Source of the DNA: Isoptericola sp. AK164
GTDB taxonomy: Bacteria > Actinomycetota > Actinomycetes > Actinomycetales > Cellulomonadaceae
NCBI RefSeq assembly: GCF_029643425.1
Contig: NZ_CP119106.1
Span: 372,001 to 436,000, forward strand
Direction of reading: 5' to 3'
Length of the DNA: 64,000 nt
In this document: in pieces, positions 13,695 to 60,197 of the stretch
How the letters are laid out: each line of letters begins with the position of its first letter
How positions within the stretch are numbered: position 1 is the first letter of the stretch
The notes under the pieces: model-generated
What the model was told of the DNA's origin: nothing
The model's database searches: none
What the model saw: only the letters and a program-made list of their open reading frames with translations
Position numbers and translations under genes: made by a program

Positions 13695-14492
13695 TCAGGC
13701 CAGGTCGAGGACCACCGGGACGTGGTCGCTCGCGCCCTTGCCGCGGCGCTCGTCCCGGTCGATCGAGACGCCCGTGACCCGGTCGCGCAGCGCGGGGGAG
13801 GCGTACGCGAAGTCGATGCGCAGACCCTTGTCCCGCGGGAAGGCGAGCTGCTGGTAGTCCCAGTAGGTGTACGTGCCGGGTGCGGGCACGTGCTCGCGGG
13901 TGACCTCGGTGAAGCCCGCCCGCTCGAACGCCGCGAACGCCTCCCGCTCCGGCGCGGACACGTGGGTCCTGCCCGCGAACGCGGTCACGTCCCACACGTC
14001 GGTGTCGCGGGGGATCACGTTCCAGTCGCCCAGCAGGGCGAGCTCGACCGCCGGGTCCGCCGTCAGCCACTGCGCGGCGTCGGCGCGCAGGCCCTCCAGC
14101 CACGCCAGCTTGTAGGCGTAGTGCGGGTCCTCCAGCGTCCGGCCGTGCGGGACGTACAGCGACCAGACCCGCACGCCCCCGCACGTCGCCCCCAGGGCGC
14201 GGGCCTCGACGCGCGGCTCCTGGTCGGGCTTGGCGAACGACGGCTGGCGCGGGAACGACGTCACGACGTCGTCCAGGCCCACGCGCGAGACGATCGCGAC
14301 ACCGTTCCACTGGTGGTACCCGGTGTGGGCGACCTCGTACCCGGCCTCCTCGAAGGGCAGGTGCGGGAACTGGTCGTCGCGGCACTTGGTCTCCTGGACC
14401 GCCAGCACGTCCGTGCCCGACCGCTCCAGGAAGGCCAGCACGCGGTCCAGCCGGGTACGGATCGAGTTGACGTTCCACGTGGCGATACGCAC
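13695..14492 (-). CDS. xthA: exodeoxyribonuclease III
   Basis: A 265-residue AP endonuclease/3'-5' exonuclease of the EEP superfamily acting in base-excision repair. Motifs in order are WNVNSIRTR, QETKCRDDQFP with the metal-binding Glu, SLYVPHGR, LLGDWNVIPRDTDVWD, GLRIDFAYAS and GASDHVPVVLDL with the catalytic Asp-His pair. The GTG start lies six bases after a TAGGGT -10 box, implying a leaderless message. It is divergent from the SDR gene with only 31 bases between the two start codons. Confidence 0.94.
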   Translation of the reverse strand: MRIATWNVNSIRTRLDRVLAFLERSGTDVLAVQETKCRDDQFPHLPFEEAGYEVAHTGYHQWNGVAIVSRVGLDDVVTSFPRQPSFAKPDQEPRVEARALGATCGGVRVWSLYVPHGRTLEDPHYAYKLAWLEGLRADAAQWLTADPAVELALLGDWNVIPRDTDVWDVTAFAGRTHVSAPEREAFAAFERAGFTEVTREHVPAPGTYTYWDYQQLAFPRDKGLRIDFAYASPALRDRVTGVSIDRDERRGKGASDHVPVVLDLA

Positions 14493-14498
14493 GCGAGC

Positions 14499-14517
14499 AC
14501 CCTAGGCCACATAGAGT
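14499..14517. promoter_or_regulatory. back-to-back -10 boxes of xthA (-) and SDR gene (+)
   Basis: TAGGGT on the minus strand (14499-14504) and TAGAGT on the plus strand (14512-14517) each end six bases before their start codon. The 31-base gap can hold both only if both transcripts start at or next to the start codon, so the two promoters overlap fully. Confidence 0.55.
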
Positions 14518-14523
14518 GCCGTC

Positions 14524-15297
14524 ATGGGTACTGCGCTCGTCACCGGCGCGACCGCCGGTCTGGGACTGGAGCTCGCCTGGCAGCTCGCCACCGCTCGTCA
14601 CGACCTCGTGCTCGTGGCCCGGGACGGCGACCGGCTCGACCAGGTCGCCGGACAGGTCCGCGCCGCCGCCGGCGTCCGCGTCGAGGTGATCGCCGCCGAC
14701 CTGTCGCGGCACGAGGACGTCGCGCGCGTCGCCGAACGGCTGTCCGTGACCGGCGCCGAGGACGGCGACGACCGTCGCCCGGTCGGGCTGCTCGTCAACA
14801 ACGCCGGCTTCGCCCCGGCCCAGCACTTCGTCGGCGGGGACCTGGAGGTCGAGACCGCCGCCGTCGACGTCATGGTGCGCGCCGTCATGATGCTCTCGCA
14901 CGCCGCCGCGGAGCAGATGGTCTCCCGCGGGCGCGGTGCCGTGCTCAACGTCTCCTCCGTGGCGGCGCTGACCGCCGGGGGCAGCTACGCGGCCGCCAAG
15001 GCCTACGTCCGCACCTTCACCGAGGGGCTCGCGGTGGAGCTGGCGGGCACCGGCGTCACGGCCACGGTGCTGTGCCCGGGCTTCACCCGGACCGAGTTCC
15101 ACGACCGGGCCGGGCTGGACACCGACGTCCTGCCCGACGGCGCGTGGCTGCACGCGTCCGAGGTGGCGGCCCACGCGCTCGCGGACGTGCGCCGCGGCGT
15201 CGTCATCTCCACGCCGTCGGTCCGCTACAAGGCGGCCTCCGCGGTGCTGCGGGCCATGCCGCGCTGGGCGGTGCGCGCCGTCGGGCACTACCGCTGA
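14524..15297 (+). CDS. SDR family short-chain dehydrogenase/reductase
   Basis: A 257-residue classical short-chain dehydrogenase. The nucleotide site is TGATAGLG (residues 7-14), NNAG at 92-95, catalytic Ser in NVSSVAAL (144-145), and Tyr155-x3-Lys159 in SYAAAKAYV. CPGFTRTEFHDRAG follows as in the family. The C-terminal part (VRYKAASAVLRAMPRWAVRAVG) resembles short-chain enzymes annotated as DltE or retinol-dehydrogenase-like. The substrate is unknown. The ATG lies six bases after TAGAGT, indicating a leaderless message; pyrE follows after 25 bases but has its own -10-like box. Confidence 0.88.
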   Translation: MGTALVTGATAGLGLELAWQLATARHDLVLVARDGDRLDQVAGQVRAAAGVRVEVIAADLSRHEDVARVAERLSVTGAEDGDDRRPVGLLVNNAGFAPAQHFVGGDLEVETAAVDVMVRAVMMLSHAAAEQMVSRGRGAVLNVSSVAALTAGGSYAAAKAYVRTFTEGLAVELAGTGVTATVLCPGFTRTEFHDRAGLDTDVLPDGAWLHASEVAAHALADVRRGVVISTPSVRYKAASAVLRAMPRWAVRAVGHYR

Positions 15298-40783: not shown

Positions 40784-41842
40784 TCAGAGCGGGACGACCT
40801 CGCCGGAGAGGTGCCGCAGCCCCTTGCGGGCGTTCCAGCCCACGTACGAGTACCCGGACCCGTCCTCCGCGCCGGGCGTGATCGCCACGTCCACCGTGCC
40901 GGGCAGCAGCACGGGCTTGCCGAACTCGACCGTCCACCGGTAGGCGTCCCCGCGTCCGGGGCCGACGTCGGCCAGCGCCCGCGCCGCGGTGTACATGCCG
41001 TGCGCGATGGCCCGCGGGAAGCCGAAGGCCTTGGCCGAGAGCGCCGACATGTGGATGGGGTTGCGGTCCCCGGACAGGGCCGCGTAGGCACGGCCCGTCT
41101 CCGGCCCCAGCGCCCACCGGCCGGTGGGCAGCGGCGGGGTCCACTCGTCGGTGGACCCGGATCCGGACGACCCGGATCCGGACGACCCGGATCCGGACGA
41201 CCCGGATCCGGACGACCCGGACTGGCCCTTCGCAGGCAGCTCGAACCCCTTGGCGAGGTAGGTCGACACCCCGCGCCACACCGGCGGCGCGGCGGCGTCC
41301 GCGCCGTCGTGGCGCACCTCGGCCACCAGGTCGAGCTGCACCCCGCGCCGGTGCGGACGGAGGTTCTCCGCCCAGGCCCGCACGTCGAGGACGTCGCCCA
41401 GGACGACCGGCCCCCGCACGTCGACCCGGTTGGCCACGTGGACCATGCCGAGCAGCGGCAGCGGGAAGTCGCCGCGCACCATGACCGCGGTGCCCAGCGG
41501 GAAGGCGAGCACGTGCAGGTACCCGGCGGGCAGCGTGCTGCTGACCGGCTCGTGCAGCAGCCGCTGGTAGTCGTGCAGGTGCCGTTCCAAGCCGTCGGTG
41601 CCGACCCCGGAGACCCGGTAGGCGACGTCGGGCAGCGACAGGTCGGACCCGGCGGTCCCCGGCTGCCCGTCCGGCGAACGGCCCTCGCCGATGACCGGCA
41701 GGGACGGCAGGGCGCGGCCCGCGGCGATCCGGCCCGACGCCGCCGCGCCGCGGGCGTAGAGGCCGCCCAGCCCGGGCAGTCCGGGCTGGGTCTCCACGCG
41801 CAGCTCGCGGCCGTCGGCCGTGCGCGGCGGCGCCGCCGTCAC
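40784..41842 (-). CDS. MaoC-like dehydratase (HtdX-like)
   Basis: A 352-residue double-hotdog protein. The C-terminal hotdog has the R-specific hydratase motif YAALSGDRNPIHMSALSAKAFGF...IAHGMYTAARAL with the Asp/His catalytic pair; the N-terminal half (residues 70-215) resembles the degenerate hotdog. The two are joined by a GSSGS repeat linker (about residues 208-230). It matches mycobacterial HtdX in architecture and gene order, acting on 3-hydroxyacyl thioesters. GTG start overlaps the reductase stop (GTGA), so it is last in the thiolase-reductase-dehydratase run. Confidence 0.85.
   Translation of the reverse strand: MTAAPPRTADGRELRVETQPGLPGLGGLYARGAAASGRIAAGRALPSLPVIGEGRSPDGQPGTAGSDLSLPDVAYRVSGVGTDGLERHLHDYQRLLHEPVSSTLPAGYLHVLAFPLGTAVMVRGDFPLPLLGMVHVANRVDVRGPVVLGDVLDVRAWAENLRPHRRGVQLDLVAEVRHDGADAAAPPVWRGVSTYLAKGFELPAKGQSGSSGSGSSGSGSSGSGSSGSGSTDEWTPPLPTGRWALGPETGRAYAALSGDRNPIHMSALSAKAFGFPRAIAHGMYTAARALADVGPGRGDAYRWTVEFGKPVLLPGTVDVAITPGAEDGSGYSYVGWNARKGLRHLSGEVVPL
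41159..41218. repeat. four perfect 15-bp tandem repeats in the MaoC gene linker
   Basis: GGATCCGGACGACCC occurs four times in a row without a mismatch. On the coding (minus) strand each unit encodes GSSGS, so copy-number change keeps the frame and only alters linker length between the two hotdog domains. Confidence 0.95.
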
Positions 41843-54766: not shown

Positions 54767-54827
54767 GTTGTGGGCATGAAAAATGCAGGTCCCCGAATCG
54801 GGGACCTGCATTTTTCATGCCCACAAC
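54767..54827. terminator. 29-bp perfect hairpin, family A copy 2 (purL / dps junction)
   Basis: A 29-bp perfect stem from GTTGTGGGCATG to its complement with a three-base loop AAT, between convergent purL and dps. The outer 22 bases match the stem of the hairpin at 15911-15972 except at a few positions that co-vary. Probably a bidirectional terminator. Confidence 0.85.
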
Positions 54828-55422: not shown

Positions 55423-55501
55423 GGTGCGCAGGCGAGGTCTCGCCAGCGGGGCCGACCGCACCGTGCTCGGCGCCGACCGGCGTCGGAGCGGTCGCCCGGG
55501 C

Positions 55502-55521
55502 GTGATCCAGGTCACTAGAAT
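55502..55521 (+). promoter_or_regulatory. GTGA-N6-TCAC site and -10 of the following hypothetical gene
   Basis: GTGATCCAGGTCAC is a near palindrome fitting the half-site spacing of CRP-type boxes; TAGAAT (-10) follows at once (55516-55521). It is a weaker version of the site at nrdD and may be bound by the same class of regulator. Confidence 0.4.
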
Positions 55522-55541
55522 GGGTGCCCTGGAGGCGCACG

Positions 55542-55934
55542 ATGACGTGGCTCGCGATGGCCTTGGTGGCGACCGGCGTGCTGGTCGCCGGACTCGCCGT
55601 GCGGTCGTGGCTGGGCTCGGACGCCCGCCGCGACGGCGTGCTGCGACGTCGTCGTCGCCGGTCCGGCCCGGACCCGATGGTCACGCTGACGATCCAGGTG
55701 CGGCTCGGCGAGCTCGCCGCCGAGCTGCGGACCGTCAGCGAGGACCCCGGTCTCTACGCACGGGCCCACCACTACCGGGCCGTCCAGGACGCCTACGACG
55801 CCATGCTGCGCGACGCCTGCCGGATCGCGGGCCTCGCCGTCGTCGACGTGCCGCTGCGACCCCACGAGCGGCTCTCCGAGGACGAGCGGCTGCGCGAGGA
55901 GCTGGAGCTCAGCTCCCGTGGCTGGTCCTGGTGA
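55542..55934 (+). CDS. hypothetical protein with N-terminal membrane helix
   Basis: A 130-residue protein of unknown function. Residues 1-24 (MTWLAMALVATGVLVAGLAVRSW) form one membrane helix, followed by an Arg-rich patch (RRDGVLRRRRRRSG) and a soluble helical domain (MVTLTIQVRLGELAAELRTVSEDPGLY, YRAVQDAYDAMLRDACRIAGL) with an acidic end. Short length and single helix suggest a small membrane-bound accessory factor. GGAGG precedes the ATG. The 20-bp repeat array starts just after its stop. Confidence 0.7.
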   Translation: MTWLAMALVATGVLVAGLAVRSWLGSDARRDGVLRRRRRRSGPDPMVTLTIQVRLGELAAELRTVSEDPGLYARAHHYRAVQDAYDAMLRDACRIAGLAVVDVPLRPHERLSEDERLREELELSSRGWSW

Positions 55935-55937
55935 CCC

Positions 55938-56287
55938 CCGAGGTAGGCAAAGTTCTGCCGAGGTAGGCAACTTCTCCCCGAGGAAGGCAGGTTCTCCCCG
56001 AGGTAGGCAGGTTCTCCCCGAGGTAGGCAGGTTCTCCCCGAGGTAGGCAGGTTCTCCCCGAGGTAGGCAACATTCGGCCGAGGTAGGCAGAGTTCTGCCG
56101 AGGTAGGCAAACCCTCCTGGAGACGAGTGACGCCCCGGTGCGGAGGAGCGGAATCGCTCCACCACACCAGGGCGTCGCCTACCTCGGCCGGATGTTGCCT
56201 ACCTCGCCGGGGTGATGCCTACCTCGGCCGGATGTTGCCTACCTCGCCGGGGTGATGCCTACCTCGCCGGGTAGTTGCCTACCTCGG
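55938..56287. repeat. mirrored array of 20-bp repeats, nine direct and six inverted copies
   Basis: Nine tandem units of 20 bases, each starting CCGAGGTAGGCA (one reads GAGGAAGGCA), run from 55938 to 56117; units 4-6 are identical. After a 60-base central segment, six units in the opposite orientation (GCCTACCTCG at 56177, 56197, 56217, 56237, 56257, 56277) keep the same 20-base spacing. The six inverted cores are in exact register with the last six direct cores, so the single strand can fold into one giant hairpin. The second arm has a 40-base higher-order repeat. The array fills the gap between convergent genes; no coding potential seen. Confidence 0.95.
56129..56176. other. hairpin at the centre of the repeat array
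   Basis: GACGCCC/GGGCGTC and GGTG/CACC outer stems, a four-by-four internal loop, then GGAGCG-GAAT-CGCTCC. This caps the giant hairpin formed by the arms and is unlike the repeat unit itself. Confidence 0.75.
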
Positions 56288-56310
56288 GGCCTGCCGTGCT
56301 CGCGGGTCGA

Positions 56311-60197
<3,887 letters not shown>

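Follow-up and report, generated by a model that had tools for sequence, protein, structure and literature searches.

Oriented 20-bp-step arrays at gene ends in Isoptericola: a candidate family of protein-bound stop sites

Transcription in bacteria is generally taken to be terminated by RNA hairpins or by Rho, and to our knowledge protein-bound, oriented stop arrays come mainly from eukaryotic ribosomal DNA (rDNA), where Sal boxes occur as a row of boxes. Among the described systems that bear on the locus reported here, i) the mammalian protein TTF1 binds the Sal box downstream of the rDNA in an orientation-dependent manner and terminates transcription in a polar fashion, its site differing between mouse and human (PMC11358750); ii) proteins like LacI, acting as roadblocks, are able to terminate transcription in bacteria, and in yeast the roadblock formed by Rap1p depends on orientation (PMC10310618); iii) REP/BIME elements are dispersed intergenic palindromes tagged by GTAG or CGTC that lie between convergent or unidirectional genes, many of them no more than about 20 bp from a gene 3' end and often as facing pairs, with some families species-specific (PMC3733652); iv) TAACTGA repeats of Beggiatoaceae are found, in the main genome, chiefly a short way before start codons and are considered to act post-transcriptionally (PMC4679880); and v) CRISPR repeats of 24-48 bp (size from PMC3733652) alternate with regular, non-repetitive spacers. 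We describe a mirrored repeat array at 55938..56287 of a 64,000-nucleotide stretch of Isoptericola sp. AK164 (the window, G000:C1:372001-436000, where G000 is this 3.58 Mb source genome), located between a hypothetical gene and icd. The array is one member of a dispersed gene-end family. The family keeps a fixed step, a gene-end location and orientation, and a helical phasing of its facing arms, and it takes on different sequence dialects at one conserved gene pair in related species.

A dispersed family at gene ends

A search for the core at 20-base spacing, in the source and in related genomes, revealed a dispersed family in the former and arrays in relatives. Exact cores number 220 in the source genome compared with 4 for a reversed-pattern control, exact core pairs at 20 bp number 105 compared with 0, and together they form at least 76 arms in at least 48 elements (elements are counted among the matches listed, and counts beyond about 2.97 Mb are low). 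The unit consensus is C-GAGGTAGGCA-A, the remainder being loosely conserved, and by eye the unit has no internal palindrome beyond ~3 bp. No viral contig searched contained the exact core pair (0 matches).

Placement and orientation were judged from gene calls made with our own codon-usage script on fetched flanks, with no use of annotation. The genes flanking the 48 listed elements are convergent in 26 cases, tandem in 22, and divergent in none; 26 elements carry both orientations and 22 only one. Nearly all single-orientation arms (21/23) are sense to the preceding gene, and of the two antisense exceptions, at 2516299 and 3050455, the former has an I. chiayiensis counterpart (L127) that does carry a facing arm. 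The arms begin close to the gene, the median distance from stop codon to first core being 10 bp for 64 sense arms, and in 21/23 gene-overlapping arms the first core itself supplies the TAG stop (chance frame ~1/3, no formal test). All 25 elements with arms of at least 2 units less than 450 bp apart have the GAGGTAGGCA arm preceding the TGCCTACCTC arm. In I. chiayiensis KCTC 19740 (G017) gene-end location and orientation were tallied as 7/8. Convergent gene ends that carry arrays have weaker local hairpins than those that do not (median -22.0 vs -29.4 kcal/mol; 37 vs 42 ends, p 0.003), as would fit arrays that stand in for intrinsic terminators.

The step between cores is strict. Exactly 20 bp separates 242/256 successive cores of the source genome (steps up to 70 bp considered), and exact-20 steps dominate the other dialects as well (G017 40/43, G013 25/27, G001 19/19, G004 12/15, G107 13/16). 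The spacers are far freer: 216 distinct sequences occur among the 10-nt stretches that follow 330 cores (terminal cores of arms included), and identity between adjacent spacers averages 64%, compared with 53% for spacers of different loci; of 203 adjacent pairs, 19% are identical and 38% are at most half alike. From the combination of identical adjacent spacers with spacers that have diverged at a kept step, we conclude that arrays lengthen when units are duplicated, frequently two at a time, and that length is kept afterwards.

The array in the window (Table 1) is a regular member of this family. The first-pass annotation of the window, made from its letters alone, had described nine direct and six inverted units at a strict 20-base period, and every step is indeed exactly 20 bp: the nine + strand cores start at 55940, 55960 ... 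56100 and all read GAGGTAGGCA except GAGGAAGGCA at 55980, and the six inverted cores start at 56176 ... 56276 and all read TGCCTACCTC except the first, CGCCTACCTC. The first core lies 5 bp past the stop codon of the hypothetical gene, and 25 bp separate the end of the last inverted core from the stop codon of icd. Core matches with at most 1 mismatch number 21 in the window, 15 of them in the array, whereas 100 shuffles average 2.4 and never exceed 7. Other particulars of that annotation were likewise recovered: the last six direct cores and the six inverted ones share a register (56000+56285 = 56100+56185), which follows from the alignment of any single pair given that the two arms have the same period of 20; the central hairpin has its own stem (GGAGCG-GAAT-CGCTCC); the unit at 56060 matches a GGCCGGATGTT spacer of the opposite arm with one mismatch (by eye); the right-arm spacers alternate in part as a 40-bp higher-order repeat (Tandem Repeats Finder, period 40, 95% matches); and the flanking genes converge, ending at 55934 and 56311. 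By eye no T tract flanks 55938-56287 on either side, so that the hairpin followed by a T tract expected of a bidirectional intrinsic terminator is present in neither direction. Rfam gave no match over 55500-56700 at E up to 1.

Table 1. Coordinates of the array and its flanking genes, numbered from the first letter of the window
Feature	Position	Strand	Description
Left arm	55938..56109	+	nine 20-bp units, core (C)GAGGTAGGCA; sense to the + strand hypothetical gene
Right arm	56176..56287	-	six 20-bp units, left-arm core inverted; sense to icd
Centre between facing innermost cores	56110..56175	.	66 bp; small hairpin 56145-56160
Hypothetical protein gene, upstream of left arm	55542..55934	+	without Pfam match
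icd, monomeric isocitrate dehydrogenase	56311..58542	-	PF03971; 3' end faces right arm

Two other repeats were seen in the window. A ~60-bp palindrome with A/T tracts at 54767-54827, flanked by a convergent purL-like gene (named by eye) and a ferritin-like (Dps-like, PF00210) gene, is a classical bidirectional intrinsic terminator, unlike the array at icd; and a 15-bp repeat at 41154-41221, GACCCGGATCCGGAC, in four and a half exact copies, possibly encodes a short peptide repeat.

Helical phasing of the facing arms

Phasing was measured as the distance separating the two innermost GAGGTAG cores that face each other, in 64 two-arm elements from seven genomes (G000 22, G017 13, G001 6, G004 12, G008 4, G006 5, and G015 2). 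The best period in a scan from 5 to 30 bp is 10.5-10.6 bp (R 0.50 at 10.5, Rayleigh p 1.3e-7, n=64), and the phase is similar in all 7 genomes. The signal is found separately in the source genome with I. chiayiensis (p 0.003) and in the other five genomes (p 2.6e-5); it persists when a distance that recurs within a genome is entered a single time (n=52, p 3.6e-5), when only gaps of at least 18 bp are used (n=34, p 5.7e-4), and when the period scan is allowed for in the unique set (p 0.00175); and the best period stays at 10.5-10.7 bp if any one genome is omitted. Stop-to-core distances, transcribed by hand, served as a control and gave R 0.07. Period 20 applied to the gaps gives R 0.11, and the phasing signal is therefore not the 20-bp lattice. 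The 10.5-bp period was first tried on the source genome and then on other genomes (a first set of 18 gaps, p 0.0014), ahead of the pooled test; the G004, G006, and G008 loci were chosen from listings for visible facing arms, and their gaps were known before the pooled test. In our reading, the phasing may reflect proteins that meet across duplex DNA.

Dialects across the genus and beyond

Triple arrays at 20 bp are present in 13/18 genomes of the genus, with 5 (G011) to 168 (G001) matches each, compared with 0 matches in controls; GAGGTAG triples account for 11/18 and GAGTCAGC triples for 2 more. The cores of the genus are GAGGTAG followed by GCA, TAC, CGC, or TTC, or alternatively GAGTCAGCGC. 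Among the matches listed, G006 carries mostly GAGGTAGTAC, and G008 and G015 are mixed after GAGGTAG; none of the matches listed for GAGGTAG triples comes from G007 or G016. In a family-wide scan for GAGGTAGGCA pairs with at most 2 mismatches 8/200 genomes match, six of them showing GAGGTCGGCA, and across the phylum GAGGTNGGCA triples occur in 1/396 genomes, that of the source. In the GAGTCAGC dialect, the inverted arm comes first at L069 8609-8690 and at G010:C1:798648-798765.

The icd gene end, compared in 16 genus genomes, shows these dialects at one position, the 3'-end word of the hypothetical gene adjoining icd in 13/16 loci examined. Clear 20-bp units are formed there by GAGGTAGGCA in G000 and G017, GAGGTAGCGC in G001, GAGGTAGTCC in G004, GAGGTAGAAC in G015, and GAGTCAGCGC in G013, and weak ones are seen in G010 and G012; G009 and G008 have a plain hairpin only, and the G002 contig stops at this point. 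The first-pass annotation had envisaged, as evidence against itself, an array absent or scrambled in all close relatives; what we find is that arrays recur at the icd gene pair with changed cores. In other genera, the icd end of G069 (L112) has four GANNTAGAAC units at a 16-bp step (by eye, one locus), and at the icd ends of G072 and G023 (L117 and L114) a facing palindrome of TTTCGACAGGCTCAACCA type or GGTCTCGACAAGCTCGACCAACGGG replaces the array, possibly another gene-end family.

Period counting de novo, with no core given, placed 20 bp on top in 4/8 samples (G013, G001, G004, and G107) and did not do so in the samples of G005, G014, G009, and G012. Such sampling can miss families, because the 100-kb sample of G012 was negative yet the whole-genome search found 25 triples. 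Samples of G069, G085, G011, and an extended G005 had no 20-bp core family on top, G069 ranking 20 bp sixth; and in about 100 kb from each of four further genera in the family (G031, G025, G086, and G026) 20 bp was outside the eight commonest periods (0/4), 19 bp being the commonest in G025 and G026. In G026, GTCAGCGC is found in 8 intergenic stretches (L182-L186), twice at a 19-bp step, and is perhaps a related family in another genus.

The comparison of I. chiayiensis with the source genome covered 25 array rows, representing 20 of roughly 28 listed places plus icd. The same gene end bears an array in the source genome for 13/25 rows and lacks one for 12/25, among the source loci compared, and the counterpart pairs inspected differ in spacers and copy numbers. 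Some of these loci have unusual centres: a 510-bp gene lies between the arms at L040 (about 13834-14610, source genome), the I. chiayiensis counterpart of which (L130) is short-centred, and at L131 4018-5008 of I. chiayiensis the gene between the facing arms is, by our gene calls, flipped relative to L041 of the source genome, as if the arms had recombined. Several draft contigs of I. chiayiensis start or end near arrays, C4 (1022), C5 (227), C6 (1098), C11 (95912 of 96121), and C13 (122), which suggests that arrays break short-read assemblies.

Interpretation and comparison with known systems

In the mechanism we propose, each arm would be a series of 10-12 bp binding sites that recur every 20 bp in duplex DNA; a putative protein would occupy the series cooperatively, each unit taking one protomer (or dimer); the facing arms would share a set helical face, so that the bound proteins could make contact or form a loop over the centre; the orientation of the row would be such that RNA polymerase leaving the gene meets one defined side; once bound, the row would be a polar roadblock at which transcription ends or stalls, two arms blocking from both sides and separating convergent genes; and as the specificity of the protein drifted between species the sites would follow, giving species dialects at conserved positions. 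Of this mechanism, the protein and its cooperative binding, its action as a roadblock, and the idea that co-evolution produced the dialects are inferred from the patterns described above. The cooperative binding array offered by the first-pass annotation gains support from the 20-bp register kept while spacers diverge and from the 10.5-bp phasing of facing arms, and binding by a protein is in our judgment the probable explanation. The two-way transcription barrier that it also offered is consistent with placement at gene 3' ends and with single-orientation arms that are mostly sense; this part is less certain than the protein array, and the sequence patterns leave it about evenly balanced. As regards the kind of barrier, LacI and Rap1p as roadblocks (PMC10310618) and polar termination by TTF1 (PMC11358750) lead us to favour a directional protein barrier. 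We are likewise evenly divided on the model as a whole, a gene-capping nucleoprotein system of Isoptericola-type actinobacteria in which a fast-evolving cooperative binder would block RNA polymerase directionally, and perhaps also the spread of supercoils.

An RNA element, in which the transcribed array would form a long hairpin or a set of RNA-protein sites and serve as a bidirectional terminator or as a stabiliser of mRNA 3' ends, is unlikely. The arrays do lie at terminator positions with single arms mostly sense, perfect or near-perfect palindromes can be seen by eye at the icd ends of G005, G006, G011, G014, and G017, and the RNA fold of the window array (-238.3 kcal/mol, z = -13.5) is equalled by 0/100 shuffles; but the fold is strong because a mirrored array must fold well, spacers of facing arms pair no better than those of different elements (25 elements, permutation p 0.91), 22/48 elements have only one orientation, and pairing explains neither the 10.5-bp inter-arm rule nor a strict 20-base step with free spacers. 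On the pairing test the hairpin was rejected as the selected feature, and this test and the one-orientation elements do not support the one giant hairpin of the first-pass annotation as the meaningful structure.

A chromosome organisation site, at which a nucleoid or topoisomerase-loading protein would occupy the arrays and, for example, absorb supercoils between convergent genes, seems to us rather improbable. The source contig opens with what reads by eye as dnaA, and the listed elements are in excess in the origin half (34/48, p 0.006) and absent from a 704-kb region across from the origin, 1.344-2.048 Mb (P about 2.7e-5), although that region does contain convergent gaps (7 in 60 kb sampled). 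However, this distribution may simply mirror the positions of conserved or convergent genes, and a supercoil sink would have no need for the orientation relative to the gene that most single arms show.

Transposon ends of the Tn7 and Mu type are rows of transposase sites, and the facing arms could by analogy be such rows belonging to a miniature mobile element that spread to gene ends, with its transposase elsewhere or lost. This would account for inverted arms of repeated ~20-bp sites, for the gene between the arms at one source locus (2801033-2801814), and for the 12/25 I. chiayiensis rows that have no array at the source counterpart, and looped pairing of the ends would likewise require helical phasing. 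We nevertheless regard it as quite improbable: i) in 26 two-arm elements there is no signal of the target-site duplication expected of a miniature inverted-repeat transposable element or a pair of transposon ends, shared flanking words not being in excess; ii) the Y1 (REP/IS200) transposase, PF01797, matches in 0/14 genomes compared with 5/14 control genomes, other transposases not having been searched; iii) the position at the icd end is kept across species while the core changes, which suggests that the arrays there were inherited in place; and iv) many elements are single-armed. Neutral tandem expansion without function would produce the evident local duplication (19% of 203 adjacent spacer pairs identical, and the 40-bp alternation) but is hardly credible where length is kept as spacers diverge and where orientation, gene-end placement, helical phasing, and genome-wide dialects would all be unexpected.

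Returning to a row of protein-bound sites that forms a directional barrier, we wish to stress the results that weigh against it. No binding protein was found, and no gene-content search was aimed at one. The 20-bp step is 1.9 helical turns, short of exactly 2. The source genome alone gives weak phasing (10-mer core, p 0.009 at 10.5 bp and 0.06 with the period scan; 7-mer core, R 0.36), and the phasing p-values are optimistic because elements share ancestry. Both GAGGTAG and GAGTCAGC triples are missing in 5/18 genus genomes (G002, G003, G005, G009, and G014), where other dialects are possible; at the icd end G005 and G006 carry GAGATAGAGA units spaced by 22 bp, a decayed version of which is seen in G011, and the spacing is 19 bp in the versions of G003 and G014; and the G107 site has a short dyad, CCGA..TCGG (by eye), and is perhaps not asymmetric everywhere. 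With regard to orientation, 10/26 two-orientation elements of the source genome have tandem genes as neighbours, leaving one arm that follows no gene; the sense rule holds for only 15/21 single-orientation arms in five other genomes (a tally on home-made gene calls); and G013 and G001 each have one element whose arms come in the reverse order. Finally, the hairpin deficit at convergent ends is only p 0.085 after shuffle correction, and tandem gene ends have no such deficit (p 0.85; shuffle-corrected 0.62).

If the model is true, oriented protein stop arrays on duplex DNA, distributed genome-wide, would constitute a third mode of bacterial termination, and the species dialects would provide a natural series on the joint change of a DNA-binding protein and dozens of its sites. 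The 10.5-bp helical signature, though drawn from sequence alone, makes the protein model directly testable.

A literature search returned no description of these arrays among the matches listed, literal-core matches being mostly medical titles. The arrays do not have the form of a CRISPR array, consisting instead of 10-bp cores and 10-bp spacers at 48 listed gene ends (cas genes were not searched). Bidirectional intrinsic terminators share the position between convergent genes, but each is a single perfect hairpin with A/T tracts whereas the arrays are repeated sites. The TAACTGA repeats resemble the arrays as genome-wide, short, oriented direct repeats tied to gene boundaries, but they are one fixed heptamer, and no 20-bp register or mirrored phasing is seen in the part of the account used here (PMC4679880).

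REP/BIME elements are similar in that the arrays also lie at the 3' ends of convergent or tandem genes and some array dialects contain GTAG. However, REP units are 20-40 bp palindromes, compared with a 10-mer at a 20-bp step in helically phased arms, and GTAG-class REPs are tied to RAYT transposases, compared with no Y1 transposase in 14/14 genomes; a text search of that paper gave 0 occurrences of 'Actinobacteria' (PMC3733652). REP/BIME with RAYT was thus rejected, the unit not being a 20-40 bp palindrome and RAYT not being found; only placement at 3' ends fits. The Sal-box/TTF1 system (PMC11358750) is eukaryotic and restricted to RNA polymerase I and rDNA, and we compare it by function, with no claim of homology. 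The orientation of sites relative to the gene that a polar roadblock of this type calls for is seen in the arrays (21/23 sense for single-orientation arms of the source genome and 15/21 in the five others), the sites of both systems differ between species, and the Sal box offers a works-like model for the mechanism that the Isoptericola arrays may use.
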